Shown: positions 659 through 26,522 of the stretch, in pieces
Numbering within the stretch: position 1 is the first letter of the stretch
Layout: the number at the start of each line of letters is the position of its first letter
Assembly: GCF_019468465.1 (NCBI RefSeq)
Contig: NZ_CP080519.1
Coordinates: 6,317,001 to 6,381,000 of the forward strand
Length of the DNA stretch: 64,000 nucleotides
Source: Amycolatopsis sp. DSM 110486
GTDB lineage: Bacteria; Actinomycetota; Actinomycetes; Mycobacteriales; Pseudonocardiaceae
Reading direction: 5' to 3'
Position numbers and translations under genes: made by a program
Notes under the pieces: model-generated
Told to the model about the DNA's origin: nothing
Database searches by the model: none
Seen by the model: only the letters and a program-made list of their open reading frames with translations

Positions 659-3960
<3,302 letters not shown>

Positions 3961-4019
3961 GCCTTGGCCTCGAAGCCACCGGCGACCTGGCGTCCTACCG
4001 CACCGTCGATGAGGCCTGG

Positions 4020-4824: not shown

Positions 4825-4919
4825 GCCGTCCAGCGTGCCACGCGCGCCCCGCGAGACGACCGGACCGAGCCTCCGGCGCACCCCTCATGGCGCCGGCGGC
4901 TCGGTCCGAAGAGGAGAGA

Positions 4920-5339
4920 TCAGCAGGCGTTGATCTTCCAGGAGTCGGCCTTGTCGTTGGCGCCAGGGATGTCGGCGAGGTTCTTGTAGTCCTTGAACGG
5001 GCTGACCTTGAGGATCAGCTTGTCGCCCAGGACGCCGCGGTGGTTGTAGAGGCAGATGGTGCGGTTGCCGTTGTTGATGATCGACGACAGCTGGCTGCGC
5101 CGGTCACCCTTGGTCGCTTGCGGCGGGTTGTTGAAGCTCCCCGACGGGGTGGAGCTGTAGTTCAGGTGCCAGCGCTGGTTGTAGACGCCGGCGTTGTAGT
5201 CCTTGTCCTGGTAGAAGCAGTAGTAGTTCGCCGGGCAGGGCGCGGTCGCGGCGGAGGCCGGCGCTGCGGCGAGCACGGTGCCGGCGGCGACACCGGCGAC
5301 GGCGGCCGCGATCGCGGCGGCGGGACGGATCTTCGACAT
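4920..5339 (-). CDS. Secreted peptidase inhibitor I36-like protein
   Basis: A 139-residue exported protein with a signal peptide at residues 1-31 (MSKIRPAAA, an Ala-rich core, then APASAA). The mature part has the small Cys-containing fold of the I36 (SMI-type) inhibitor family: APCPANYYCFYQDKDYN, then YSSTPSGSFNN and a C-terminal SWKINAC. Family members inhibit extracellular metalloproteases. The start ATG 5339 follows a GGGGAGAG ribosome site; an upstream ATG at 5366 would only lengthen the leader. It is divergent from the SARP-NACHT gene. Confidence 0.75.
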   Translation of the reverse strand: MSKIRPAAAIAAAVAGVAAGTVLAAAPASAATAPCPANYYCFYQDKDYNAGVYNQRWHLNYSSTPSGSFNNPPQATKGDRRSQLSSIINNGNRTICLYNHRGVLGDKLILKVSPFKDYKNLADIPGANDKADSWKINAC

Positions 5340-5481
5340 GGCGGTTCTCTCCCCTTGAGCGGTCACTCCCGGAGCGGGCGACCGGATGGCTCAACCGTGG
5401 CGAGATCCGTCCTCGCGCCGTCATCACGCCGTCCTCACGCAGGTCAGCGCAGGTATGATCATGGTCCGGGGAGGGACGTGG

Positions 5482-8274
5482 ATGGACTTCTGTGTGCTGG
5501 GGCCGTTGGAGATCTGGACGGCCGGGGGACGGTTGTCCCTCCCGGGAACCCGGCATCAGCGCGTGTTGGCGACGTTGCTGCTAACCCCCAACGCCGTCGT
5601 CCCCATGGCGAGGCTCATCGGGGCCACGTGGGAGGGCGAGCCGCCCGCCACGGCCACCAAGCAGGTGCAGAACTGTGTGTCGGCGCTACGCGAACGGCTC
5701 GGTGACGCCGAGCAGCGCCTCATCGTCACCGACGGTCCCGGCTACCGGATCACCGTCGCCGACGACCAGCTCGACCTGCTCCGCTTCACCAAGGGCATCG
5801 CCGACGCGAAGCGGTTCGCGGAGAAGGGCGCCCTGCGCGACGGTGTGCGCGAGATCCGCACCGCGCTCAAGCTCTGGCGCGGTCCCGCACTCGACGGGCT
5901 CGACACCCCGGCGCTGGTCAGCCGCGCTGCCCGGCTGGACGAGCAGCGCCTGGACGCGTTCGAGTCGTGCGTCGACTGGCAGTTCGCGCTCGGCCAGCAC
6001 CGCGAGGTCGTCGACGAACTCGCCGAGGTCGTCGCCGAGCACCCGCTCCGCGAACGGCCGCACGCCCAGCTGATGCTCGCGCTCGATCGCTCCGGCCGGC
6101 AGGCAGACGCGCTCAAGGTGTTCCAGCGCCTGCGCACCGACCTCGCCGAAGAGCTGGGCATCGACCCCGGCCACGACGTCCGCGACCTGCACGAACGCAT
6201 CCTCCGCGGCGAGAACCGCCCGGCCGGCGACGCGCCCGTCACAGCCGCACCCCCGGACGAGCTCGACCGCGCGGCAAAGGAGCTCGCCGCGGCGATCACC
6301 CGGCAGTGGACCGCCGAAGCCGAGATGCGCTCGCTCAAGCGGCCGGAGCCGGTGCCGTTGAACTGGTCGAGCACCGAGCGCGAGGTCGCCGCCGCCGCGT
6401 CAGCAGTGCTCGGCGCCCGCCCCGGCGAGGGCCCGGACCGCCTCGTGCTGAGCGGCGATCTGACCGACGTCGTCGCGAAATTCCGGCAGGTCCCGGCCCG
6501 GCAGCTCGTGGTACTCGGCGAGCCCGGCGCCGGAAAGTCCGTGCTGGCAATCCTCCTCACTCTCGGCTTGCTTACCGACCCGCCACCGGGCGAGCCGGTG
6601 CCGGTGCTGTTGCCGCTCGCCTCCTGGAACCCTCGCCGTGAGCACCTGCACACCTGGCTGGCGCGCAAGCTGGTCGAGGAATACCCGGGCCTCGCGAACA
6701 CCGCCGCCTACGGCGAGGACGCCGGCCTGCGCCTGGTCCTCGAAGGCCGGATCGTCCCCGTCCTCGACGGCCTCGACGAAACCCCGCCCGGCCTCCACAC
6801 CGCCGCCATCGACGCGCTCGACCAGGCCGTCGGCGCCGGCCGCCCGCTGGTGGTGACCTGCCGCAGCGCCGAGTACGAGCTCGCGGTCCGCCAAGCGGGC
6901 TCCTTCCTGACCCGGGCCGCGGTGGTCGAGATCGAGCCGGTCGAGATCGAGGACACGATCGCCTTCCTCACCGCACGCCGACGCTCCGGCGAGACCCGCT
7001 GGGACCCGCTCGTCCGCCGCCTGCGCCGCGAGCCGACCGGGCCGCTCGCCCAAGCCCTGCGCACGCCGCTCATGGTCGATCTCGCCAGGACCGCCTACGC
7101 GAACCCCGCCACCGACCCCGGCGAACTCTGCGACGCCACGCGATTCCCGGACCGCGCATCCGTCGAACGACACCTCCTCGACGCGTACCTCCCTGCCGTC
7201 TACACCCGCAAACCCGCACCTCTCGCTCAGCTCGCCCGCCCACACCGGCCGCGCGACTACGACCCCGAGGAGGCCGAGCGCTGGCTCACCTTCCTCGCGC
7301 GGCAGCTCGAGCGCGAACGCACCCGCGACCTCGCCTGGTGGCAGCTCGACCGCGCCGTGCCGAGCCTCGTCGTCGGCCTGTACCTCGGCTTGCCGCCCGC
7401 AGTGCTGTTCGCCCTCACCGGCTGGCTGGCCGCCGGCCCGGTGATCGGGGTGATCTACGGAGGCTCCTTCGCGATCGCGGGCTGCGTTACGCACAGCGTC
7501 GGGCGCCGGCCAGGACCGTTGCGAGTGGAACCGAGGTTCGCCGGCACCGCCGGCCGCTTCGCCCGCCGGTTCGCGGTGGGCGCCGTGATCGGCGTCTGCC
7601 TCGGCCTCGGCTGGTCGCTCCCGGCCTGGGTGATCAGCCTGCTCGCGCTCGTGTTCGGCCTGGCCATCGGCGTGCACGTCTGGCTGGGCACGCCGCTCGA
7701 CGCGAACCGGGTGTCCAGTCCGGAGACCGTGCTGCGCCACGATCGTGCTGCGGCTCTCTCGTTCACGTTGTCATTCATGGTCTCCCTGGGTCTCTTCTAC
7801 GGTTTGGCACTGGCTCTCACCCCCGCCGAGTCCACCTTCGAAGTGCTGAACGGGCACTACGACGTGGTGCTCGGGCTGACGGGCGGGGTGGCCGCCGGGC
7901 TGCTGGGCCGGTACCTCGTGGCGAACCTGGGTGGTGTCGCCTACGGAATCGCCGGAGCGGTCATCGGTGGACAGGTGTTCCTGCCTGCGACCAGCGCGGT
8001 GCAGGCAGTGGCAGGTGGCGGTCTGTTCGGCCTTTCGGTCGGCGTGAGTGTGTGTTTGGCCCGGGCGTGGGGCGCATTCGCGTTCACCCGGCTCTGGCTG
8101 GCGTCGCGGGGCCGGATTCCGTGGGGATTCATGGCTTTCCTCGCCGACGCGCACCGGCGCGGGGTGTTGCGTCAGGTCGGCGAGGTGTACCAGTTCCGGC
8201 ACGCGAGGCTGCAGGAGCGGCTTGCCGACGCGGGATCCACAGCCGGTGGGCACCCAGTCATGAGTGACGAGTAA
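5482..8274 (+). CDS. SARP-NACHT-membrane fusion protein
   Basis: A 930-residue three-part protein. Residues 1-95 are an OmpR-like winged helix and about 100-250 a bacterial transcriptional activation domain, the SARP/AfsR arrangement. Residues about 335-520 are a NACHT-type STAND NTPase with Walker A VLGEPGAGKS near 345 and Walker B VPVLDGLDE near 425. After a helical region, about residues 625-870 form several hydrophobic, Gly/Ala-rich membrane segments, followed by a short cytosolic tail. ATG 5482 is preferred (GGGAGG just upstream, and the SARP fold begins at residue 2). A DNA-binding activator tethered to the membrane through a NACHT switch suggests a signal-gated regulator. Targets are unknown. 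It differs from AfsR in having membrane helices in place of TPR repeats. Confidence 0.85.
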   Translation: MDFCVLGPLEIWTAGGRLSLPGTRHQRVLATLLLTPNAVVPMARLIGATWEGEPPATATKQVQNCVSALRERLGDAEQRLIVTDGPGYRITVADDQLDLLRFTKGIADAKRFAEKGALRDGVREIRTALKLWRGPALDGLDTPALVSRAARLDEQRLDAFESCVDWQFALGQHREVVDELAEVVAEHPLRERPHAQLMLALDRSGRQADALKVFQRLRTDLAEELGIDPGHDVRDLHERILRGENRPAGDAPVTAAPPDELDRAAKELAAAITRQWTAEAEMRSLKRPEPVPLNWSSTEREVAAAASAVLGARPGEGPDRLVLSGDLTDVVAKFRQVPARQLVVLGEPGAGKSVLAILLTLGLLTDPPPGEPVPVLLPLASWNPRREHLHTWLARKLVEEYPGLANTAAYGEDAGLRLVLEGRIVPVLDGLDETPPGLHTAAIDALDQAVGAGRPLVVTCRSAEYELAVRQAGSFLTRAAVVEIEPVEIEDTIAFLTARRRSGETRWDPLVRRLRREPTGPLAQALRTPLMVDLARTAYANPATDPGELCDATRFPDRASVERHLLDAYLPAVYTRKPAPLAQLARPHRPRDYDPEEAERWLTFLARQLERERTRDLAWWQLDRAVPSLVVGLYLGLPPAVLFALTGWLAAGPVIGVIYGGSFAIAGCVTHSVGRRPGPLRVEPRFAGTAGRFARRFAVGAVIGVCLGLGWSLPAWVISLLALVFGLAIGVHVWLGTPLDANRVSSPETVLRHDRAAALSFTLSFMVSLGLFYGLALALTPAESTFEVLNGHYDVVLGLTGGVAAGLLGRYLVANLGGVAYGIAGAVIGGQVFLPATSAVQAVAGGGLFGLSVGVSVCLARAWGAFAFTRLWLASRGRIPWGFMAFLADAHRRGVLRQVGEVYQFRHARLQERLADAGSTAGGHPVMSDE

Positions 8275-8647
8275 GGATCACTGGAGCAGCACCGTTCCAT
8301 CATGCCCACGGTGATTCGCAGATGTCATCGATTCGAACACATGTTCGCACGATCGGGTGGTCACTCGGGTGAAGGGCGGCAATCGCCGCCTGGGGCGCGC
8401 TAACCTCGGATTCATCAAAGCAGCCGGACGCGGTGCGACTCCGCCCCGTCCTCATCGGCGCGGAAATCCTTCAGCAGCAACAATTTCTGCACTCGAGCAG
8501 CACATCTCGAGCAGGACACCGACACATTCACGTGAGAACGGATCAGCGATGTACCCAGCAGAGGTCGATTCGGCGGCGCGCAAGAAAGCTCGTCCCCGCT
8601 GGAGACCGGAGCGCCGCCTCACGGACGGCGAGCGAAGACCCAGGGCG
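8275..8647. other. 373-bp convergent intergenic region with no convincing gene
   Basis: The region lies between the SARP-NACHT stop and the stop of the MBL-fold gene. Open frames here run on into the antisense of the MBL gene and have no recognisable protein. It contains an SOS-box-like palindrome (8333-8348) and short CTCGAGCAG direct repeats near 8495-8515. No rho-independent terminator was identified. Confidence 0.5.
8333..8348. promoter_or_regulatory. SOS-box-like (LexA) palindrome without an obvious downstream gene
   Basis: TCGAACACATGTTCGC fits the actinobacterial LexA box (TCGAAC-N4-GTTCGA) at all but the last base. It sits in a convergent gap, so it would need an unrecognised small transcript or peptide downstream on the plus strand, or may be a chance match. 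Confidence 0.4.
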
Positions 8648-10834: not shown

Positions 10835-10852
10835 CCACCCCGCTAGGGGTGG
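10835..10852. terminator. Short hairpin at the fadE33 stop
   Basis: CCACCCC and GGGGTGG form a 7-bp GC stem around a short loop that includes the fadE33 stop codon. No T-run follows. It may act as a weak terminator at the end of the fadD3-fadE33 operon. Confidence 0.35.
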
Positions 10853-11964
10853 ACGCGCGAACGGTGGTGATGGGGTGCGCCGAATAGCTGCGCGGCCGCG
10901 TGTGCTCGTTTGAAGTACCGGTGCGCGGGATGGTCCCAGGTGATGGCGATGCCGCCGTGCAGCTGGATCATCTCGGCGGCGACCTCGGCGAACGCTTCGC
11001 TGCAGTGCACCTTCGCCACTGCCGCGAGCCGGGACGACGCCGGCGCAGCGTAGGCGGCGGAGCGCGCGGTCTCCACCAGCACGTGGAGGTCGGCCATCCG
11101 GTGCTTGAGCGCCTGGAAGCTCCCGATCGGGCGGCCGAACTGCACCCGGTGGCGCGTGTACTCCACGGTGAGCTCCAGCGCCCGTGACGCTGCCCCTACC
11201 TGTTCGGCGGCCAGTACGGCGCAGGCGACGTCGCGGACCCGTGCGAGGTCGACACGTCCTAGCGGACGCGCGCGGACGCGGTCGAGCGTCACGTTGGCGA
11301 GGTGGCGAGTCTCGTCCATCGTCGGCACGGGTTCGCAGCGGACGCCGGGGTGTGCGGGATCGACCTCGAAGAGAGCGGGGCCGTCAGGGGTCCTGGCGGC
11401 GGCCAGGAGGACGTCGGCTCCGGCGGCGTCGAGGACGTAGTGGGCGGTTCCGTCCACTGTGGACTCCTTGGCGGTGAAGGCGGGCTGCAGCGGGTCCCAG
11501 CGTCCGTCGGCGGTCCAGGCGAGAGCGCCGACGGTGCCCTCGGCCAAGGCCGGGAGCAGGCGGGCCAGGCCAGGGGCCTCGGTGTTGGTGGCGTTGGTGT
11601 TGGTGGTGGCGAGAAGGGAGGTGACGGCGAGGACGGAGGAACCGAGGAACGGCACGTCGGTGAGGTTGCGGCCGAGCTCTTCCGCGACGATCTGCACCTC
11701 GGTGAGGCCGATGGACTGGTCCGGATGGGCTCGGTCGGCCGAGTCGGTGGAACTGGACGGGCGGATCGGGCCGGCGCGGTGGGTTGGGTCGGCCGGATCG
11801 GCCGGCTGGGTCGTCGGTTCGGTGGCGAACCCGCCGAACCGCTCGGGCACCGTGAGGGCGGTGACGCCGACCTGAGCGCAGAGGGCGGGCCACGGCTCGG
11901 CCTCACGGTCGAGGAGCTTGCGGACGCTGGCACGGAGCTCGTCCTGCTCGGACGTGAACGTCAC
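10843..11964 (-). CDS. fadE33: FadE33-like acyl-CoA dehydrogenase subunit with a ~38-residue low-complexity insertion
   Basis: A 373-residue acyl-CoA dehydrogenase subunit, last gene of the fadD3 operon, matching the fadE31-fadE32-fadE33 order of the KstR2 regulon (ring C/D catabolism). These subunits work as alpha2beta2 heteromers. The C-terminal domain has VEYTRHRVQFGRPIGSFQA and MIQLHGGIAITWDHPAH. Residues about 47-85, between ERFGGF and GLTEVQIVAEELGR, are a Pro/Thr/Ala/Asp/Ser-rich stretch not expected in the family; without it the length would be normal. A small NTNATNT repeat occurs near residue 115. The GTG start overlaps the fadE32 stop (GTGA). Confidence 0.85.
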   Translation of the reverse strand: MTFTSEQDELRASVRKLLDREAEPWPALCAQVGVTALTVPERFGGFATEPTTQPADPADPTHRAGPIRPSSSTDSADRAHPDQSIGLTEVQIVAEELGRNLTDVPFLGSSVLAVTSLLATTNTNATNTEAPGLARLLPALAEGTVGALAWTADGRWDPLQPAFTAKESTVDGTAHYVLDAAGADVLLAAARTPDGPALFEVDPAHPGVRCEPVPTMDETRHLANVTLDRVRARPLGRVDLARVRDVACAVLAAEQVGAASRALELTVEYTRHRVQFGRPIGSFQALKHRMADLHVLVETARSAAYAAPASSRLAAVAKVHCSEAFAEVAAEMIQLHGGIAITWDHPAHRYFKRAHAAAQLFGAPHHHRSRVHP

Positions 11965-13349
11965 GGTGCGATCGCCGCCAGGACACGTCGGCGGTGTTCG
12001 GCTGGGGTGCCCCATGCGCCGACGAGGGCGCGGACGCGCGTGAGGCGCAGGCCGAGCGGGTGTTCGGCGGTGTAGCCGATGGCGCCGTGGACCTGGAGGG
12101 CCGTCCGGGCGGCGAGGTGGGCGGCGTCGCCGCAGGCGGTCTTGGCGGCGGAGACGTCGGCGGGATCGCCGGTGACTGCGGCGCCGTAGAGGAGGGGTGT
12201 CGCGAGTTCGAGGGCCGTGGCGACGTCGGCGAGGAGGTGCTGCACGGCCTGGTAGCGGCCGATCTCGCGGCCGAACTGGCGGCGGGTGAGGGCGTGGGTG
12301 ACCGAGGCTTCGAGAAGCCACCGGCCGGCGCCGAGGATCTGGGCCGCGGTGAGAAGGGCTCCGAGGTCGAACGCGCGCGCCGGTGCGAGCGCAGGGCCGA
12401 CGTCGGCGCCGGGCACGGGCTCGAACAGGCGGCGTGCTGCGTCGAGAGAGGAGAGGGCATCGCCGGGTGTGAAGCGGCGGAGGCGGGTGCCGTCGACGAA
12501 GTAGCGGGCGTCGGCGATGTCGGCGTCGAGGGCATAGGGAACGTAGGGAGGGAAGGCGAGCGATACGAGGGTTTCGCCGGCGGCCACCGAGGCCAGCACG
12601 TCGCTGTCGAGCAGCAGCGGCAGTACCGCGGCGTCGGTCCACGGGCCGGGCGGGCAGAAGCGGCCGAGCACCTCGAAGGCGACGACGGCATCCACGACGT
12701 TCGCGCCTGAGTCGCCGACGTTGGCTGGAGTGTGATCATCGGCTGAGCCGCTGTCGCGGGTCGGGGTGAGATCGCCGGGTGACCCGTTGTCGCGGGCGGA
12801 AGCGCTGAGCTTGAGCGAAGCGCCGGCGCTGGCCGAACCGTGGTCGGTTGCCGAGGAGCGAGCGGCGCGCGAGGCGACATGGTTGGCTGAACGGCCGTCG
12901 GTGGCTGAAGTGCGCTCGTCGGCCGAGCGGCCGAGGTCGGTTGAAGCGGTGTGGTGGGTCGAGTGCCTGTGGGCGGTTGAAGCGAGGTGGTCGGCTGAGT
13001 GGCTGTGCGCGGTTGAAGCGACGTTATCGGCGGGACGGTCGTTGGCGGCCGAAGCGCGATCGCTGGGCCGACGGGCGCTGGTGGCTGAAGTGCGATCGCT
13101 GGGTCGAGGGGCGCTGGTGGCTGAAGCGCGATCGCTGGGCGGAAGTGCGCCCGCGGCTAGCCCGCCGTGGTGGGTGGGGATGGTGAGGGATTGGAGGCCC
13201 TGGTCGGCGAGGCGGCGCCAGATCTTCAGGCCCGGGCCGGGGTTGCCGGTGGACCAGGCGCGGGTGGCGGCGTCGCAGTCGAGGGTGTTGAGCAGGGCCG
13301 TGAGGGAGGTGGCGAAGTCGCGGTGGTCGGGGGAGAGGGTGAACCTCAT
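11961..13349 (-). CDS. fadE32: FadE32-like acyl-CoA dehydrogenase subunit with a ~150-residue repeat insertion
   Basis: A 462-residue protein where the family norm is about 310-330. Residues 1-64 are the ordinary N-terminal helical domain (ending in a HHGGLAAG loop). The dehydrogenase fold resumes at about residue 218 (VVAFEVLGRFCPPGPW) and continues to the usual ALQVHGAIGYTAEHPLGL end. In between are about 150 residues rich in Ser, Ala, Asp, His and Arg, built from about nine 12-residue units. The start overlaps the fadE31 stop (ATGA). It should pair with FadE31 in HIP side-chain or ring oxidation. Whether the insert is translated and tolerated is not known. Confidence 0.85.
   Translation of the reverse strand: MRFTLSPDHRDFATSLTALLNTLDCDAATRAWSTGNPGPGLKIWRRLADQGLQSLTIPTHHGGLAAGALPPSDRASATSAPRPSDRTSATSARRPSDRASAANDRPADNVASTAHSHSADHLASTAHRHSTHHTASTDLGRSADERTSATDGRSANHVASRAARSSATDHGSASAGASLKLSASARDNGSPGDLTPTRDSGSADDHTPANVGDSGANVVDAVVAFEVLGRFCPPGPWTDAAVLPLLLDSDVLASVAAGETLVSLAFPPYVPYALDADIADARYFVDGTRLRRFTPGDALSSLDAARRLFEPVPGADVGPALAPARAFDLGALLTAAQILGAGRWLLEASVTHALTRRQFGREIGRYQAVQHLLADVATALELATPLLYGAAVTGDPADVSAAKTACGDAAHLAARTALQVHGAIGYTAEHPLGLRLTRVRALVGAWGTPAEHRRRVLAAIAP
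12702..13154 (-). repeat. In-frame 36-bp minisatellite inside fadE32
   Basis: Two neighbouring units at 13056-13091 and 13092-13127 match at 33 of 36 bases, and a third begins at 13128. Further, more degenerate 12-residue units continue to about 12702. Protein units look like ..RPSDRASATS, ..SADHLASTAH and ..SADERTSATD. The period is a multiple of three, so the frame is kept throughout. Confidence 0.85.
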
Positions 13350-14488
13350 CGGTCTCCTCTCGGGAGGCCGAGCAGGCGCTCGGCGATGATGCCGCGCTGG
13401 ATTTGGTCGGTGCCGCCGTAGAGGGGGCCGGCGAGGGAGAAGAGCCAGCCGTCGGGCCAGGGGCCGCGGAGTTCGGCGGACGGGCCGAGGAGGTCGAGAG
13501 CCGTTTCGTGGAGGGAGAGGTCGAGGTGTGACCAGAAGAGCTTGGTGACGCTGGCTTCCGGGCCGGGTGGGGTGCCGTCGGCGAGTCGGGTGACGGTCGC
13601 GAACGTGTGGAGCTGGTAGGCGCGGGCGCCGATCCAGGCGTCGGCGACGCGGGCGGCCGTGGCGTCGGGGCGGCCCGACGTGGACCACAGGTCGGCCAGA
13701 CGTCGCGCGGCGGCGAGGAAGCGGCCGGGGCTGCGGAGGGAGAGGCCGCGTTCGTTGGCGGCGGTGGTCATGGCGACGCGCCAGCCGTCGCCGGGGGTGC
13801 CGATGATGTCGGCGTCCGGGACGAAGGCGTTGTCGAAGAAAATCTCGGCGAAGGCGGGCTCGCCGTCGAGCTGGGGGATGGGGCGCACGGTGACGCCGGG
13901 CGCGCGCAGGTCGGCCATGAGGTAGGTGAGGCCGCGGTGGCGCGCCGAGCCGGGTTCGCTGCGGAACAGGCCGAAGGCCCGGTCCGCGAAGGCCGCGCGG
14001 GAGCTCCAGGTCTTCTGGCCGTTGAGGAGCCAGCCGTCGTCGGTGCGGGTGGCGTTGCTGCGCAGGGAGGCGAGGTCGCTGCCGGCCTCCGGTTCGGACC
14101 ACGCCTGCGCCCACACTTCTTGTGAGCGCGCCATTCTGGGCAGGATCCGGGCGAGCTGCTCGGGGGTGCCGTGGGAGAAGAGGGTGGGGGCGAGCATGAA
14201 GATGCCGTTCTGGTTCACCCTTGCGGGTGCGCCGGCGGCGTAGTACTCCTCCTCGAACAGGACCCACTCGAGCAGGCTCGCGTCGCGGCCGCCGAACTCG
14301 CGGGGCCAGGAGACGACGGACCACCGGGCGTCGGCGAGCTTCTCTTCCCAAGCCCGGTGTGCTGCGAAGCCCTCGGCGGTGTCGAACGAGGGCAAAGCCT
14401 CGCGGGGCACGTGGGTGGCCAGCCACTCGCGGGCCTCGTCGCGGAATGCCTCGGCGGCAGGCCCTAGTTCGAGATCCACCGGGCTCAC
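13346..14488 (-). CDS. fadE31: FadE31-like acyl-CoA dehydrogenase
   Basis: A 380-residue full-length acyl-CoA dehydrogenase with FAD-binding motifs WAQAWSEPEAGSDLAS and GWLLNGQKTWSSRA, and the C-terminal GGTDQIQRGIIAERLLGLPRG block. It is expected to form heteromers with FadE32/FadE33 in KstR2-controlled breakdown of the ring C/D propionate side chain. It is the only one of the three operon FadEs without a low-complexity insert. The GTG start overlaps the echA stop (GTGA) and the stop overlaps the fadE32 ATG. Confidence 0.88.
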   Translation of the reverse strand: MSPVDLELGPAAEAFRDEAREWLATHVPREALPSFDTAEGFAAHRAWEEKLADARWSVVSWPREFGGRDASLLEWVLFEEEYYAAGAPARVNQNGIFMLAPTLFSHGTPEQLARILPRMARSQEVWAQAWSEPEAGSDLASLRSNATRTDDGWLLNGQKTWSSRAAFADRAFGLFRSEPGSARHRGLTYLMADLRAPGVTVRPIPQLDGEPAFAEIFFDNAFVPDADIIGTPGDGWRVAMTTAANERGLSLRSPGRFLAAARRLADLWSTSGRPDATAARVADAWIGARAYQLHTFATVTRLADGTPPGPEASVTKLFWSHLDLSLHETALDLLGPSAELRGPWPDGWLFSLAGPLYGGTDQIQRGIIAERLLGLPRGDR

Positions 14489-15771
14489 GCTCGGCTTTCG
14501 GCCGCGCCGCCGGCAGGCTCGGGTCCGGGACCGACCGAGCTGCCGCGGGTCGCGGGGCGGCCGGCGGATGCGGGACCGGTGTTGCTCGCGGTGCCGTGAT
14601 CTGTGGGGCGGTCGGCGGATGCGGGACCGGTGTTGCCTGTGGTGCCGTGATCTGTGGGGCAGCCAGAGGGTTCGGGATTGGTGTTACTTGGGTTGCGGCG
14701 ATCCGTGAGGTGGCCGTCGGGTTCTGGGCTATCGAGGGCTGAGGTCGGGTGGTCGCCGGGTTCGGGGCTGCTGTTGCTTGTCGTACCGTGATCTGTCGCG
14801 TGGTCGGCGGACGCGGGGCTGGTGTTGCTTGTGCTGCCCTGATTTGTGAGGTGGTCGGCGGGTTCGGGACTGGGGACGCCCGAAGCGTGGCGGTCCGTGG
14901 CGTGGTGGGCGGCGGTGGTCGGCTCTGGATGGGGCGGCGGCGGTGCGGGGTGGCGCATGGAGCGGGCGGTGTGGCCGCCGAGGGAGTCGCCGGAGGTTTC
15001 GGCGTTGTGGGCGTGGGCGAGGTGGTGGAGGGCGAATGCGGAGTCCATGCCGTTGCGCAGGCCCATAAGGTCTTCGGCTTGGTTGACGGCTTTTTTGGCG
15101 AGCGCGAGGCCGAAGCGGGGCATCTCGGCGATCTGCGCGGCCAGTGAAAGGGTCTCGGATTCCAGGGAGTCGCGGGGGACGACGCGGTTGACCATGCCCC
15201 ACGCCAGCGCTTGGTCGGCGGAGAAGCGTGCGCCCGTGAAGAGGACTTCCTTGGCGGTGCGCGGGCCCAGGACCCAAGGGTGGGCGAAGTACTCGACGCC
15301 GGGAATTCCCATGCGTACCACGGGGTCGGCGAAGAAGGCGTCGTCGGAGGCGACGATGAGGTCGCACGTCCAGGCGAGCATGAGGGCGCCGGCGATGCAG
15401 GCGCCCTGGACGGCGGCGATTGTGGGCTTCGGCAGGTCCCGCCAGCGGCGGCACATGCCGAGGTAGACCTCCGATTCGCGCGCGAAGCGCTGGTCGGCGC
15501 CGGGGGCGTCGACGTGGTCCCACCAGGTGACGGCGCGGCGGGGGAACGACAAGTCGGCATCACGGCCGGGGGAGCCGATGTCGTGGCCGGCGGAGAAGTG
15601 CTTGCCCGCGCCGGCCAGGACGATGACCTTCACCTCGAAGTCCTCGACGGCGCGGGTGAAGGCATCGTCGAGGGCGTAGGTCATCGCGGAGTTCTGGGCG
15701 TTGCGGTACTCCGGCCGGTTCATGGTCACGACGGCGGTCGGGCCGCGGCGCTCGTAGAGGACTTCAGGCAT
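14485..15771 (-). CDS. Enoyl-CoA hydratase/isomerase with a long repetitive C-terminal tail
   Basis: A 428-residue protein. Residues 1-275 form a crotonase-fold enoyl-CoA hydratase: N-terminal [29 protein letters not shown] for the first oxyanion site, and VQGACIAGALMLAW for the second. Residues 276-428 are a Pro/Ser/Thr/Asp/His/Gly-rich tail made of about seven 17-residue units, ending GGAAESRA. Normal relatives stop near residue 270-320. The gene sits between fadD3 and fadE31, where the mycobacterial KstR2 operon has no echA. Its 5' end is copied several times upstream. ATG 15771 follows GGGGAGAACACACCG. The step it catalyses is uncertain. Confidence 0.82.
   Translation of the reverse strand: MPEVLYERRGPTAVVTMNRPEYRNAQNSAMTYALDDAFTRAVEDFEVKVIVLAGAGKHFSAGHDIGSPGRDADLSFPRRAVTWWDHVDAPGADQRFARESEVYLGMCRRWRDLPKPTIAAVQGACIAGALMLAWTCDLIVASDDAFFADPVVRMGIPGVEYFAHPWVLGPRTAKEVLFTGARFSADQALAWGMVNRVVPRDSLESETLSLAAQIAEMPRFGLALAKKAVNQAEDLMGLRNGMDSAFALHHLAHAHNAETSGDSLGGHTARSMRHPAPPPPHPEPTTAAHHATDRHASGVPSPEPADHLTNQGSTSNTSPASADHATDHGTTSNSSPEPGDHPTSALDSPEPDGHLTDRRNPSNTNPEPSGCPTDHGTTGNTGPASADRPTDHGTASNTGPASAGRPATRGSSVGPGPEPAGGAAESRA
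14509..14880 (-). repeat. 51-bp tandem repeats encoding the EchA tail
   Basis: GGTGCCGTGATCTGTGGGGC on the plus strand recurs at 14590 and 14641, exactly 51 bases apart. Related units extend on both sides. Encoded 17-residue units have the form (T/S)xPASADxxTDHGTxSN or xPEPxxxxTD.... The frame is preserved. Confidence 0.85.
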
Positions 15772-15859
15772 CGGTGTGTTCTCCCCGGTTGCGGTGCTCC
15801 GGCCGGTTGACGGTGAGAATGGCAGTCGGGTCATGGCGTTCGTGCTCGACTTCAGACAT
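15764..15859 (-). CDS. 31-residue micro-ORF, echA-start copy, coupled to echA
   Basis: The ORF begins MSEVEHERHDPTAILTVNRP and reads like the first residues of the hydratase (MPEVLYERRGPTAVVTMNRP). It then ends in a TGA that overlaps the echA start by eight bases (ATGCCTGA). It has a good ribosome site. It may merely pass ribosomes to echA; no independent function is suggested by the sequence. Confidence 0.4.
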   Translation of the reverse strand: MSEVEHERHDPTAILTVNRPEHRNRGEHTDA

Positions 15860-16190
15860 CGCTGTGTTCTCCCCGGTTGCGGTGGTCGGGCCGGTTCACG
15901 GTGAGAATGGCGGTCGGGTCATGGCGTTCGTGCTCGACTTCAGGCATCGGTGGGTTCTCACCCGTTGCGGTGGTCGGGCTGGTCCGTGATGACGAGGGTG
16001 ATGGGGCCGCAGCGTTCGTGGGGAACTTCAGGCGTCGGTGCGCTCGCCGGGGTTCCAGCGCGGGCCGATTCGCGGAGTCGGTGGGGCCGCGGTGGTTGTG
16101 CGGCAGTTCGCGCATGCCTGCGCTGCGGCTGGATGCGGTCGGGTCTGCGCGGCGTGATGGCGGGGCCGCCACGTCCAGGAACTCAGGCAT
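15852..16190 (-). CDS. 112-residue ORF made of fused echA-start copies, coupled to fadD3
   Basis: Its ATG overlaps the fadD3 stop by eight bases (ATGCCTGA). It reads through the outer repeat units in one frame, including MRELPHNHRGPTDSANRP and finally MPEVEHERHDPTAILTVNRP. It stops inside the start of the next micro-ORF. The middle of the ORF reads one repeat unit in a shifted frame. It is likely a by-product of tandem duplication, though the coupling at both ends is intact. Confidence 0.4.
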   Translation of the reverse strand: MPEFLDVAAPPSRRADPTASSRSAGMRELPHNHRGPTDSANRPALEPRRAHRRLKFPTNAAAPSPSSSRTSPTTATGENPPMPEVEHERHDPTAILTVNRPDHRNRGEHSDV

Positions 16191-17742
16191 GTGGGCGCTC
16201 CTGCGGTGGGGACGGGCCGGCGGTCGCTTTGTCGACGGGGTCGGGCATGGGGGTCTCGCGGAGAAGGCGTTTGAGGACTTTGCCTGACGGGTTGCGCGGG
16301 AGCGCAGGGACGAACTCGACTGAGCGCGGCACCTTGTAATTGGCCAGATTCTCCTTGCAGTACGCCAAAACAGCCTCGGCGGTCAGACCGGCGCCGGGGT
16401 GGGGGACGATGTAGGCGCGGCCCACTTCGCCCAAACGGGTGTCGGGGAGGCCGACGACGGCGGAGTCGGCGATGGCGGGGTGGGTGGCGAGCACCTGTTC
16501 GACTTCGGCGGGGTAGACGTTGAAGCCGCCGCTGACGTAGATGTCCTTGAGGCGGTCGGTGATGCGGAGGTGGCCGTCGGCGGACAAGGACCCGACGTCG
16601 CCGGTGTGGAGCCAGCCGGCGGGGTCGATGGCGGCCGCGGTGGCGGCGGGGTCGTCGAGGTAGCCGAGCATGACGTTGGGGCCGCGCAGGAGAATCTCGT
16701 CGTGGTCGCCGAGGCGGATTTCGAAGCCGCCGGTGGGGCGGCCGGAGAAGTGGGAGACGACGTCGAGGGAATCGGTCGGGCTGCTCATGGTGGCGACGAC
16801 GGCTTCGGTCAGGCCGTAGGCCGTCAGCACCGTGTCGAAGCCAAGGTCGGAGTGCATGCGGGCCACTAGAGGTGCCGGGACCGACGCCGCGCCCGTGACG
16901 GCCAGGCGCAACGAGGACAGGTCCCGGCGTGAACGGTCCGGGGCGTCGAGCAGCATCCGGTAGACGGTCGGGGCGGCGGGCAGCACGGTGATGCGTTCCT
17001 GCTCGATCAAGCGCAACGTCGAGGAAGCGTCGAAGACGCGCTGCGGAACGATCGTGGCGCCCGTCAAGACGCAGGCCAGGATGCCTGCCTTGTAGCCGAA
17101 ACTGTGGAAGAACGGGTTCACCACCAGGTAGCGGTCCCCAGGAGACAACCCGGCGCACGACGCCCAAGCGGCCGCGACACCGAGGGCCTGACGGTGTGCG
17201 CTCATCGCGCCCTTGCTGCGGCCGGTGGTGCCGGAAGTGAAGAGGATGTCACTCACGTCGTCCGGGGTCACCGCTGCCGAACCGAAAGTACCGTCCACAT
17301 CGGACCATTCGACGACGCCCGGCACCGGCGGCTCCGCGGCTTCGACCGGCACGCGCACCACCAGGGGTGGCAAGGAGTCCAACGCAGCGAGCCGCGAAGT
17401 CCCCAGGAAACGGCCCGTGATCACCAAACCCGAGAGCCGCGCCCGCGAGAGCACATCCAGGGTTTCCCGCGCGGTGAACCGGGTGCTCACCGGAACGAGT
17501 GTCGCGCCCGCGTAGAGAATGCCCAGGCCCGCCACGACCCAGTGCCACGTGTTGGGAGAGCACACCGCGACGCGCGCGCCGGTGCCCACGCCGTGCGAAG
17601 ACAAGAAGCCCGCGAAAGCCCGCACGCGTGAGCGCAGGGCGGCCCACGTCAGCCGGACGTCGCCGTCGGCCACGGCTTCGCCCGTGGGGTCCCGCTCCGC
17701 GGCCGCGTCGAGCGCTGCGGGAACGGTCAGCGGCAGCGTCAT
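16183..17742 (-). CDS. fadD3: FadD3, HIP-CoA ligase
   Basis: A 519-residue adenylate-forming acyl-CoA ligase with the AMP-binding P-loop LFTSGTTGRSKGA near residue 160, the YGLTEA motif and the C-terminal hinge ending GKVLKRLLRE. FadD3 activates the ring C/D propanoate HIP, the committed step of the KstR2 regulon. ATG 17742 follows GGAGG. It diverges from fadE30 with a perfect KstR2 operator between them, which is the family arrangement. It is followed by the echA-start repeat array instead of directly by the next gene. Confidence 0.9.
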   Translation of the reverse strand: MTLPLTVPAALDAAAERDPTGEAVADGDVRLTWAALRSRVRAFAGFLSSHGVGTGARVAVCSPNTWHWVVAGLGILYAGATLVPVSTRFTARETLDVLSRARLSGLVITGRFLGTSRLAALDSLPPLVVRVPVEAAEPPVPGVVEWSDVDGTFGSAAVTPDDVSDILFTSGTTGRSKGAMSAHRQALGVAAAWASCAGLSPGDRYLVVNPFFHSFGYKAGILACVLTGATIVPQRVFDASSTLRLIEQERITVLPAAPTVYRMLLDAPDRSRRDLSSLRLAVTGAASVPAPLVARMHSDLGFDTVLTAYGLTEAVVATMSSPTDSLDVVSHFSGRPTGGFEIRLGDHDEILLRGPNVMLGYLDDPAATAAAIDPAGWLHTGDVGSLSADGHLRITDRLKDIYVSGGFNVYPAEVEQVLATHPAIADSAVVGLPDTRLGEVGRAYIVPHPGAGLTAEAVLAYCKENLANYKVPRSVEFVPALPRNPSGKVLKRLLRETPMPDPVDKATAGPSPPQERPHA

Positions 17743-17755
17743 CGCAGACCTCCCT

Positions 17756-17769
17756 AGCAAGTGCTTGGT
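17756..17769. promoter_or_regulatory. Perfect KstR2 operator between fadD3 and fadE30
   Basis: AGCAAGTGCTTGGT matches the KstR2 palindrome ANCAAGNNCTTGNT at every fixed base. It lies 14 bases upstream of the fadD3 start and 45 upstream of the fadE30 start, so one dimer site can repress both directions until HIP-CoA is present. Confidence 0.85.
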
Positions 17770-17813
17770 AGGGTAACCTACGGACGAGCCCCGGGGCCAG
17801 AGAGGAGAACGCG

Positions 17814-18929
17814 GTGGACGAGTTCCGGATGCGGATCCGCTCCTGGCTGGCCGAGCACCTCGACCCCGCGCTCAAGGGTCTCGGCGGGCCGGGCCGGGAG
17901 CATGAAGCGTTCGAGGAACGCCGGGCCTGGGAACGGAAACTCGGCGCCGCCGGGTGGAACGGGTTGGGCTGGCCCCCAGGGCACGGCGGGCGCGGCGCGA
18001 CGATCGAGCAGCAGGTCGCGTTCCACGAGGAGTACGCCTGCGCAGACGCGCCCGCGCGGGTGGGTCACCTCGGGCAGGAGCTGCTGGGGCCGGCGCTCAT
18101 CGCGTTCGGCACCGAAGCCCAGCAACGCCGGTTCCTGCCGAAGATCCTCGCGGTCGACGAGCTGTGGTGCCAGGGCTACTCCGAACCCGGCGCCGGGTCC
18201 GATCTCGCCGCGGTCGCCACGAAAGCGCGACTCCGCAACGACGAATGGGTGATCACCGGCCAAAAAGTCTGGACGTCGCTGGCCCACGTCGCCGATTGGT
18301 GCTTCGCGCTCGTCCGCACCGAGCCGGACAGCAAGCGCCACCACGGGTTGTCCTTCTTGCTCATCCCGATGCACCAGGACGGCGTGGAAGTCCGGCCGAT
18401 CCGCCAGCTCACCGGCACCGCCGAGTTCAACGAGGTCTTCTTCACCGAAGCCCGCACCGCCAAGGATCTCGTGATCGGCGCGCCCGGCGACGGCTGGCGG
18501 GTCGCGATGGGCGTGCTCGGGTTCGAACGCGGCGTCGCCACGCTCGGTCAGCAGGTCGGATTCCGGCGGGAGCTGGAGGCGATCACGGAACTCGCCGAAA
18601 CGTCCGGCGTGGCAAGGGATCCGCACGTCGCCGAGGCCATCGCGCGGGCGTGGGTGGGCCTCGAGGTCATGCACGCGCACGCGCTGCGCGCCCCCGGCGG
18701 ACCCGGCGCCGCCTCCGTTGCGAAGCTGGTCTGGGCCGGCTGGCACCGCAAGCTGGGCGAGCTGGCCATGCTCGTGCGCGGCGCCGCGGGCCTGGTCGCG
18801 ACCGAAGACCGCTGGCAACGCTTGTTCCTCTTCTCCCGCGCCGACACGATCTACGGCGGCTCCGACGAGATCCAGCGCACCGTGATCGCCGAGCGCGTGC
18901 TCGGCCTGCCCCGGGAGGCGCGGCCGTGA
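17814..18929 (+). CDS. fadE30: FadE30, 5-OH-HIP-CoA pathway acyl-CoA dehydrogenase
   Basis: A 371-residue acyl-CoA dehydrogenase with WCQGYSEPGAGSDLAA, EWVITGQKVWTSLAH and the C-terminal GGSDEIQRTVIAERVLGLPRE block. It oxidises the HIP-CoA side chain early in ring C/D degradation. GTG 17814 follows GAGGAG. First gene of the fadE30-ipdF-kstR2-fadA6 run; its stop overlaps the next start (GTGA). Confidence 0.9.
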   Translation: MDEFRMRIRSWLAEHLDPALKGLGGPGREHEAFEERRAWERKLGAAGWNGLGWPPGHGGRGATIEQQVAFHEEYACADAPARVGHLGQELLGPALIAFGTEAQQRRFLPKILAVDELWCQGYSEPGAGSDLAAVATKARLRNDEWVITGQKVWTSLAHVADWCFALVRTEPDSKRHHGLSFLLIPMHQDGVEVRPIRQLTGTAEFNEVFFTEARTAKDLVIGAPGDGWRVAMGVLGFERGVATLGQQVGFRRELEAITELAETSGVARDPHVAEAIARAWVGLEVMHAHALRAPGGPGAASVAKLVWAGWHRKLGELAMLVRGAAGLVATEDRWQRLFLFSRADTIYGGSDEIQRTVIAERVLGLPREARP

Positions 18930-25201: not shown

Positions 25202-25765
25202 ATGTCCCGCGTGGGACGGCACAATCGAACGCTGAGCCCGACGGACGATCATGAAACCGAAACCCCCGGAGTTCATGACGACCTGGCCAAAGCGTTGTAC
25301 CAAGAGTTCGGCGGAGCCTTGATGGGCTTCGCGCTGCGCCTGACCGGTCACGACCGGCAGTGGGCGGAGGACGTGGTGCAGGAGACGTTGATCAAGGCTT
25401 GGCGCAACGCCGACAAGCTCGACCGGAGGCCGGCGATGCTGCGCGCGTGGCTGTTCACCGTCGCTCGGCGCATCGTCATCGACGGCTGGCGCAGCCGCAG
25501 TGTCCGTCCGCAGGAGCTCGAGGAGATCGAGTCCGACTCCGTGTTCGTGTCCGACGAGTCGGACAAGACGGTGGCGGCCATGATCCTCTACGAGGCGCTG
25601 CAAGGGCTTTCGCCCGAGCACCGGGAGGCGGTGCAGCAGACGTACCTGGCCGACCGGACCGTGAACGAGGTCGCCGCCACCCTGGGGGTGCCGCCCGGCA
25701 CCGTCAAATCGCGAATCCACCACGCCGTCCGCGCCCTGCGGAAGGCCATGCGCGAGCGGGGGTGA
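25202..25765 (+). CDS. ECF RNA polymerase sigma factor (SigK/SigL-type)
   Basis: A 187-residue ECF sigma factor. Region 2 is at about residues 30-95 (DVVQETLIKAWRNADKL), region 4 at about 130-180 (LSPEHREAVQQTYL, then VPPGTVKSRIHHAVRALR). ATG 25202 is used; GTG 25211 is possible. One base separates its stop from the anti-sigma start. It diverges from the lipoprotein operon, which is its most likely target. Confidence 0.88.
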   Translation: MSRVGRHNRTLSPTDDHETETPGVHDDLAKALYQEFGGALMGFALRLTGHDRQWAEDVVQETLIKAWRNADKLDRRPAMLRAWLFTVARRIVIDGWRSRSVRPQELEEIESDSVFVSDESDKTVAAMILYEALQGLSPEHREAVQQTYLADRTVNEVAATLGVPPGTVKSRIHHAVRALRKAMRERG

Positions 25766-25766
25766 G

Positions 25767-26522
25767 GTGACCGTGCCCGGACCCCCGCACACCGACCTTG
25801 CCGCGTACGTGCTCGGCGTGCTCAGTGAAGCCGACAACACGCGGTTCGAGGAACACCTGCTCGACTGCCCGCATTGCCAGCTCGACCTCGTCGAGCTTCA
25901 CCAGCTGCCCGACGTGCTCGACCTCGTGAAGAAGAACTGGCCGGAGCCGCCGGTACCGGTCACGCCGGGGCGCACGCTGGCGCCCGGCCCTCGCGTGCTG
26001 CGCGCGCTGATGGCCGAGGCGACGGTGAAGCGCAAGCGGCGCCGGCGCATCGGGCTCGTCGCCGCGGCGGCCGCGGCCGCGCTCGTGGTGGCGGGTCCGC
26101 TCGTGACGCTCGCGGTGCGCCCAGCCGACGCCGCGGGTCCCACCGTGAGCCTGGCAGCGCCGACTTCGGTCCCGCCGGCGCCGTCTTCCTCGCTGTCCGC
26201 GCCCGGTGGTGGCACGTCGTCTGGTCAGGGCGCTTCGGCCGTGACAGCGCGCGTGTCCTTGACGCCGCGCGAGTGGGGCAGTTCCGTGGACCTCGAGCTG
26301 AGCGGGGTCGCGGGACCGATGAACTACCAGCTGCTCGCCATCTCCTCAGCCGGAGACATCCGCACGGTCACGGGCTGGTCCGTGCCCGCGAAGGGCTACG
26401 GGATCCCCGGCTCGCCGGGCCCGCTGAAGGTGACGGGCGGCACGTCGCTGCCTGCCGGCCAGATCACGCGATTCGAGGTCCGGGCCGACGACGGCACGCT
26501 GCTCGTGGTCGTCGACCGCTGA
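25767..26522 (+). CDS. Zinc-binding anti-sigma factor, membrane anchored
   Basis: A 251-residue protein. The N-terminal zinc anti-sigma domain has HLLDCPHCQLDL, the HxxxCxxC motif, near residue 32. A basic stretch KRKRRRR precedes one membrane helix at about residues 92-115. The outer part has a Pro/Ser linker and a beta-rich domain resembling the RskA C-terminal domain (SVDLELSGV, GWSVPAKG). It probably holds the ECF sigma factor and is released on a redox or envelope signal. Confidence 0.85.
   Translation: MTVPGPPHTDLAAYVLGVLSEADNTRFEEHLLDCPHCQLDLVELHQLPDVLDLVKKNWPEPPVPVTPGRTLAPGPRVLRALMAEATVKRKRRRRIGLVAAAAAAALVVAGPLVTLAVRPADAAGPTVSLAAPTSVPPAPSSSLSAPGGGTSSGQGASAVTARVSLTPREWGSSVDLELSGVAGPMNYQLLAISSAGDIRTVTGWSVPAKGYGIPGSPGPLKVTGGTSLPAGQITRFEVRADDGTLLVVVDR

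Follow-up and report, generated by a model that had tools for sequence, protein, structure and literature searches.

Tandem amplification of the fadD3/echA junction in a steroid gene cluster of Amycolatopsis and its chain of coupled short reading frames

In the stretch of 64,000 nucleotides (nt) analyzed here, which we call the window (Amycolatopsis sp. DSM 110486, contig NZ_CP080519.1, positions 6,317,001 to 6,381,000), the gene fadD3 (16183–17742), whose product falls in the HIP-CoA ligase family (NCBIfam NF005801, 682.6 bits, above cutoff), is followed on the minus strand by echA (14485–15771), a gene of the crotonase family (NF006140), after a spacer of 411 nt that forms, together with the start of echA, a tandem array with a period of 88. 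We consider it likely that such arrays, of which two others lie nearby, were born locally by tandem duplication of junctions between coupled genes, that ribosomes probably pass through by termination and reinitiation, that the encoded peptides are by-products, and that the amplification has been tolerated.

The array between fadD3 and echA

The units begin at 15771, the start of echA itself, and then at 15859, 15947, and 16035. Tandem Repeats Finder reported them at 15700–16040 (period 88, 3.9 copies, 81% matches, score 367), a repeat search of the window returned three copies of 176 nt spaced by 88 and 88, and self-matching at a lag of 88 peaked at this array, reaching there its maximum for the entire window; the exact 88-base steps given in the initial annotation are thereby confirmed. 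The source unit consists of the opening 88 nt of the echA reading frame (15684–15771), followed outward, on the same strand, by copy 1 (15772–15859, ATG at 15859), copy 2 (15860–15947, ATG at 15947), and copy 3 (15948–16035), in which the start has decayed to ACG. Their identity to the echA unit is 80%, 78%, and 73%, respectively, and copies 1 and 2 are 90% identical to each other per register and 93% in the best 88-nt register, which reproduces the likeness of about 93% noted earlier for the inner copies.

Beyond copy 3 lie two shorter units on the minus strand, also with an ATG (16115 and 16190): a decayed copy of 80 nt (16036–16115) and a decayed copy of 75 nt (16116–16190) that retains the overlap ATGCCTGA. 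When the outer copies were tested with three scoring schemes, each time with 1000 dinucleotide shuffles for comparison, the score of the 16190 copy was reached by 3, 30, and 0 shuffles, and that of the 16115 copy by 13, 109, and 19, so that of the two further starts proposed initially the former is supported and the latter weakly so. The FadD3 tail, with an ATG at 16249, was rejected as a seventh copy (107, 123, and 208 of 1000 shuffles reach its score); two control stretches of fadD3 were non-significant (191–998 of 1000), and a separate run of 300 shuffles gave 30/300 for the 16190 copy and 46/300 for the FadD3 tail. The decay ascribed to the outer copies is visible in their lower identity, in the lost start at 16035, and in these tests. 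A search of the organism's own genome at E <= 0.001 placed the array sequence at one locus only, on which ground a mobile or dispersed repeat was rejected; a DNA search at E <= 0.01 gave four matches, the one listed being this array, and a search for the 15-mer that spans the joint of two units returned 28 matches when two mismatches were allowed, the two exact ones both lying inside the array.

The array carries a chain of open reading frames (ORFs) leading from fadD3 through an ORF of 112 amino acids (aa) and one of 31 aa to echA, and the relay layout first described for this spacer was indeed found, its three 8-nt stop/start overlaps being intact. The 112-aa ORF (15852–16190, minus strand) starts with an ATG overlapping the fadD3 stop (ATGCCTGA) and ends on a stop overlapping the ATG at 15859 (ATGTCTGA), from which the 31-aa ORF, MSEVEHERHDPTAILTVNRPEHRNRGEHTDA, runs on the same strand (15764–15859) to a stop overlapping the ATG of echA (ATGCCTGA). 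All three links, at -8, fall in the range of -8 to +10 used here for termination–reinitiation. The predicted pairing with the anti-Shine-Dalgarno sequence amounts to -6.6 kcal/mol at 16190, -6.8 at 15947, and -7.9 at both 15859 and echA. A conserved small protein family was rejected because the 112-aa ORF had no match in NCBIfam or Pfam at E <= 0.001, and an RNA element in the array region was rejected since an Rfam search of 12800–17900 gave no match at E <= 0.5; a simple scan of 15500–16400 found no internal promoter or terminator.

Relatives and copy number

Among 29 loci of relatives, 28 of them from the genus Amycolatopsis, FadD3 lies directly upstream of echA in 28 (the exception being L031), with all gaps of 2–59 nt; among the named loci this is so in 75 of 80, with a gap of 5–134 nt as counted from FadD3 residue 502. 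The distance between the stop of fadD3 and the start of echA is -8 to +10 in 115 of 127 measurable loci (from 133 examined, with 112 distinct echA sequences and several genomes counted twice), and in 105 it is -4; the remaining 12 comprise ten longer overlaps, one of which (-861) surely reflects a misplaced start, and two distances above 20 nt. The two closest relatives examined, G009 and G035, have an 8-nt overlap, ATGGCTGA, and the ancestral overlap between fadD3 stop and echA start that had been postulated is hence right in kind. In a DNA search of 80 genomes of the genus, the array was absent outside its own genome among the matches listed, the other matches being to the echA start (at most ~105 nt) or scattered and short.

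The C-terminus of FadD3 in relatives reads LREEN(D)G or similar, to which the window protein, 16 aa longer than that of G009, adds ~16–23 residues ending in PPQERPHA. Since FadD3 of Amycolatopsis sp. NPDC001319 (P0124) shares this ending and that of A. rhabdoformis (P0125) is without the tail, the array probably arose within this sub-clade. In another record, P0126 of Amycolatopsis sp. NPDC051903, FadD3 reaches 557 aa and carries a low-complexity insert mid-protein; this suggests that steroid-pathway proteins have been inflated elsewhere in the clade too.

A search of the protein collection with the 112-aa ORF (E <= 1) returned two homologues. The first, P0121, has 113 aa and 96% identity to the window ORF, being one residue longer in frame and differing only in one short patch within copy 3 (15972–15983, residues 70–73 of the 112-aa ORF; TSPT versus AVTMA), which may be strain variation or an assembly difference; the record, listed with a contig of 7033 bp, apparently comes from a second assembly or strain of this species. 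The second, P0122, has 114 aa (two more, again in frame) and about 82–83% identity, and is listed with a contig of 10145 bp, as is the EchA of the sister species, P0001. Whereas the 112-aa ORF of the window ends in EHSDV, P0122 ends in KHTDA, the ending of the window ORF that abuts echA, and for this reason the sister species seems, from its protein records, to carry one unit fewer. The innermost unit of the window in turn looks like a recent duplication, a reading with which it fits that copies 15859 and 15947 share HD at the residues that read RG in the sister and in echA; the copy number of the array would then vary between species. The last unit differs from P0122 at 8 of 31 residues, against 0 of 24 between the echA N-terminus and P0001 (Fisher P 0.007). 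The peptides are thus not conserved, and translation probably flows through the chain without any peptide function. Between window and sister, identity is 83% for the spacer ORF, 89% for the tail of EchA, and 97.8% for its core. The early notion that the spacer documents repeats still being born and decaying is supported by the single short junction of relatives, the decayed outer copies, and the apparently smaller array of the sister.

Further amplified junctions, origin of the units, and rival explanations

Two more junctions, which the initial annotation had overlooked, are amplified in the neighboring steroid operon, 12–13 kb from fadD3/echA; HsaA, HsaD, HsaC, and HsaB all score above curated cutoffs, which marks it as the hsa operon. 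Between hsaD and hsaC (2659–2833, plus strand) there are about three decayed copies of ~58–60 nt combining the start of hsaC with the end of hsaD (0 of 1000 shuffles reach the spacer score, and copy-to-copy tests gave 0–16 of 500), and an ORF of 58 aa (2658–2834, plus strand) bridges the two genes, overlapping the stop of hsaD (TGATG) and the start of hsaC (TAATG). Between hsaC and hsaB (3688–4019, plus strand) lies an array of the hsaC end, of 84 bp in 2.2 copies according to Tandem Repeats Finder (3688–3868), whose score against that end is reached by 0 of 1000 shuffles; this spacer has no match to the hsaB start (989 of 1000 shuffles reach the score) and no ORF bridge, the hsaB ATG (4020) lying 80 nt past the stop of a 69-aa ORF. 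When these junctions were examined in 29 of 74 relatives with an HsaC match, plus L254, the distance for hsaD/hsaC was -1 in 27 and +6 in two (29 measured, one unmeasured), and for hsaC/hsaB it was -4 in all 28 measured (two unmeasured). The window contains 19 adjacent co-directional gene pairs, 17 of which have a distance in G009; of the 11 that are coupled there (-8 to +10), seven remain coupled in the window and three have been spread by repeats: fadD3/echA from -8 to +411, hsaD/hsaC from -1 to +175, and hsaC/hsaB from -4 to +286. The eleventh pair, 25322/25809 (25765–25809 in the window), goes from 0 in G009 to +43 here, with uncertain start calls.

According to the scheme that we favor, a tandem duplication would have occurred across the stop/start overlap of fadD3 and echA, its joint running from codon 24 of echA into the bases that immediately precede the echA start. 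As the frame across this joint closes at the overlapping stop, a unit would form a self-contained cassette comprising the echA start with its ribosome site, ~24 echA codons, and then probably old C-terminal codons of fadD3, their stop overlapping the next start. Later slippage or unequal recombination would have gained and lost units, decay rising with distance from echA, where the unit would be kept intact because the enzyme is under selection. Given a period of 1 modulo 3 and an overlap in every unit, ribosomes could in principle pass from fadD3 through the 112-aa and the 31-aa ORF to echA, the starts at 16190, 15859, and 15771 each having in addition an SD-like (Shine-Dalgarno-like) site of its own, and the two peptides would be by-products. 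A similar process would have hit hsaD/hsaC and hsaC/hsaB, and arrays in frame would have inflated the proteins EchA and FadE32. For six Escherichia coli and Haloferax gene pairs, reinitiation is reported to be nearly gone at a distance of ~20 nt (PMC10666635), and an unbridged spacer of 411 nt would therefore be expected to uncouple echA. We infer the use of the chain by ribosomes, the fadD3 origin of the 3' end of the unit, and tolerance rather than selection.

Several observations weigh against this scheme. The passage of ribosomes is a prediction from sequence, and overlaps of -8 are described as reinitiating worse than shorter ones (PMC10666635). Hexamer coding scores are negative for the 112-aa ORF (-31.2) and the 31-aa ORF (-1.7), as compared with +7.1 for the first 96 nt of echA, although the tail of EchA, which is inside a gene, scores -81.5. 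The 17 nt before echA match the fadD3 ends of relatives no better than shuffles do (212–1825 of 2000 shuffles reach the score in five relatives), so that the fadD3 origin of the 3' part of the unit rests upon its position and upon the clearer case of hsaD/hsaC. Moreover, hsaC/hsaB has been amplified without a bridge, from which it follows that coupling is not indispensable, and enumerated duplications (over the fadD3/echA junction of two relatives and both hsa junctions of G009) keep coupling in 33% of cases, by which token the existence of the chain does not prove that it was selected.

How, then, should the chain be explained? One answer is that it constitutes a selected translational relay, the number of micro-ORFs setting how many ribosomes reach echA and hence its ratio to FadD3. 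Adaptive tuning by the array is a possible reading of the sequence, yet as an explanation of its existence we hold selection to be distinctly unlikely. It would account for the three overlaps and SD-like sites being all intact, for the ORF being open in both homologous records with length changes in frame, and for a copy number that varies between species; in addition, four of the five differences in the 24 codons shared by copies 15859 and 15947 are at third positions, hsaD/hsaC is bridged too, and bridges opened by ATG are rare in shuffled spacers (0.091 for fadD3/echA and 0.027 for hsaD/hsaC, as against 0.254 and 0.122 with GTG allowed, and 0.266 and 0.168 with GTG and TTG). However, the bridge missing at hsaC/hsaB and the one-third of tandem duplications that produce a bridge anyway speak to the contrary, and bridges at two of the three amplified junctions, with one-third expected, do not appear significant. 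Nor are bridged gaps in clear excess, their number being 23 for 15.9 expected in the own genome (n=270) and 5 for 13.7 in other Amycolatopsis (n=179). Nine non-synonymous and two synonymous codons of 24 differ between echA and copy 15859, an ORF like that of 112 aa stays free of stops after 20–50 random substitutions with P 0.73–0.46, and protein records favor open frames. The initial claim of a unique relay is not supported in that form: the layout exists, but its translation is a prediction, the peptides diverge, frame retention is no rarer than under chance duplication, hsaD/hsaC is a second bridged junction in the same window, and the repeats of mycobacteria discussed below are a known analogue. 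Equally improbable to our mind is the broader proposal that such junctions are evolving translational dials, in which chimeric cassettes would pass ribosomes with some loss per step and changes in copy number would tune enzyme ratios; if true, the local birth of cassettes could be how repeats of the mycobacterial kind first arise.

The opposite answer, a purely neutral spacer with unused micro-ORFs and echA translated from its own SD-like site, we consider unlikely. That site is retained (-7.9 kcal/mol), the micro-ORF peptides drift, and hsaB apparently manages without a bridge; yet 24 of 29 relatives have a stronger echA site (15 of these reach -10.3 kcal/mol), the fadD3 stop is overlapped by an ATG with an SD-like site (-6.6), and the overlaps, ATGNCTGA, are intact at each step that would be used. 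Misassembly is a familiar problem with tandem repeats, and an artefact has to be weighed as well; we regard it as exceedingly improbable, since numerous differences separate the copies and the ORF recurs, nearly identical, in what appears to be a second assembly (P0121) and as a homologue in the sister species (P0122). The insertion of a mobile repeat at a start codon, for which the unit length, the intergenic and co-oriented position, and the ORF coupled to the downstream gene could be adduced, is likewise very improbable, considering that the array occupies a single locus of its genome at E <= 0.001 and that its units copy the flanking echA start, just as the hsaD/hsaC units copy their own flanks.

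Known repeats and the surrounding cluster

The closest comparison is with the mycobacterial interspersed repetitive units (MIRUs), described as apparently mobile elements that insert at start codons and contain an ORF coupled at -4 nt, a coupling that probably limits their effect on expression (PMC12548453). Between senX3 and regX3, Mycobacterium tuberculosis H37Rv has three MIRUs of 77 bp and strain CDC1551 two of 77 bp plus a shorter one of 53 bp; this spacer is also reported to show promoter activity (PMC4213456). Like MIRUs, whose tandem make-up is variable among strains, the fadD3/echA units are repeats of similar length (88 bp against 77 and 53 bp), intergenic within an operon, co-oriented, and provided with an ORF coupled downstream. 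In contrast to them, the coupled ORF overlaps by 8 nt (ATGCCTGA) rather than at the -4 spacing, the array is confined to one locus of its genome rather than dispersed, and the units derive from their own flanking genes; in the sources cited, MIRUs are confined to mycobacteria. Upstream ORFs of small size and bicistronic designs similarly couple a short ORF, whose product is perhaps irrelevant, to the next gene (PMC12548453), but here there are two serial ORFs between structural genes, originating from duplication of the junction. Prokaryotic satellites are tandem arrays too, and in a survey of them most long units have a length divisible by 3 nt and probably encode protein (PMC6749651); the arrays within EchA and FadE32 fit this pattern, whereas the fadD3/echA unit of 88 nt is no multiple of 3 and spans a stop/start overlap.

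A literature search, limited to titles and abstract openings and with most subscription papers outside its reach, turned up no account of a junction between coupled genes being duplicated in tandem. Duplicating the junction itself would be a route for inserting hundreds of bases between coupled genes with the chain of stops and starts unbroken, and would provide a model without mobility for MIRU-like spacers. It also offers a natural setting in which one can test how reinitiation depends on the number of steps, and it cautions annotators that a small ORF at the junction of two operon genes can be a by-product instead of a gene.

The array is embedded in a steroid cluster, with HsaA, HsaD, HsaC, HsaB, and FadD3 above cutoffs together with acyl-CoA dehydrogenases; the FadE numbers are assigned by position, no equivalog cutoff being reached by the FadE or TetR genes. 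A TetR gene sits where we take kstR2, whose regulon serves the degradation of cholesterol rings C and D, to lie, and between fadD3 and fadE30 there is an exact match (17756–17769) to what we assume to be the KstR2-type operator consensus. The longest ORF of fadD3 begins within this site, at TTG 17760; translation more likely starts at the ATG at 17742, in agreement with the record P0123 of 519 aa.

Several proteins of the window are longer than in G009, namely EchA by 151 aa, the product of a FadE32-like acyl-CoA dehydrogenase gene (11961–13349, minus strand) by 144, that of a FadE33-like gene (10843–11964, minus strand) by 35, and FadD3 by 16; for the other complete collinear genes the difference ranges from -82 to +48 aa, in part an effect of the start calls, and the value of -82 belongs to the FadE32 gene, which the gene caller used here had shortened. 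EchA has a C-terminal tail of ~150 aa (14488–14944) that is absent in G009 and contains arrays of 51 bp at 14554–14720 and 14744–14861; P0001 has a tail that is shorter by 17 aa, or one 51-bp unit, and P0002 (507 aa) a much longer one. The FadE32-like protein has an internal low-complexity insert in its N-terminal part (~12735–13154, limits set by eye) with arrays of 36 bp at 12938–13021 and 13034–13140, and the FadE33-like protein has one at ~11713–11829, also delimited by eye. Elsewhere in the window, the stretch 4882–8647 measures 3.8 kb, including a long gene call (5455–8274), where G009 has ~0.8 kb between the same neighbors.

Tandem arrays as such are ordinary in the genus, given that the own genome outside the window has 29 in 1.2 Mb (24 per Mb), with ten in a further 0.4 Mb, and other samples of the genus have 20–60 per Mb; their concentration on the steroid cluster and on coupled junctions is not ordinary, five arrays lying here in 3.1 kb where ~0.075 would be expected (P ~2e-8, computed after the fact). 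A scan for duplicated gene starts gave a score of at least 50 in four of 984 own genes and in 0 of 637 genes of others: besides echA, these are L199, an in-frame protein repeat, L228, a run of paralogous genes, and L231, a repeat inside a long ORF that is acyl-carrier-like by look. Of 356 gaps of 40–600 nt between co-directional genes scanned in the own genome (270 + 34 + 52), nine reached z >= 4, the clear junction amplifications being only fadD3/echA, hsaD/hsaC, and hsaC/hsaB. L199 (an internal start), L044 (a duplicated small gene), and L208 (an apparently miscalled start) were discarded, and L215, L256, and L264 are weak cases with short gaps; the 179 gaps of other Amycolatopsis yielded one weak case at this threshold, L251. 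Strong arrays also occur elsewhere in the own genome, as in L274 (10148–10444, 108 bp x 2.7), within a long ORF in L231 (5248–6033, 270 bp x 2.9), and between genes in L041 (14115–14392, 85 bp x 3.3).

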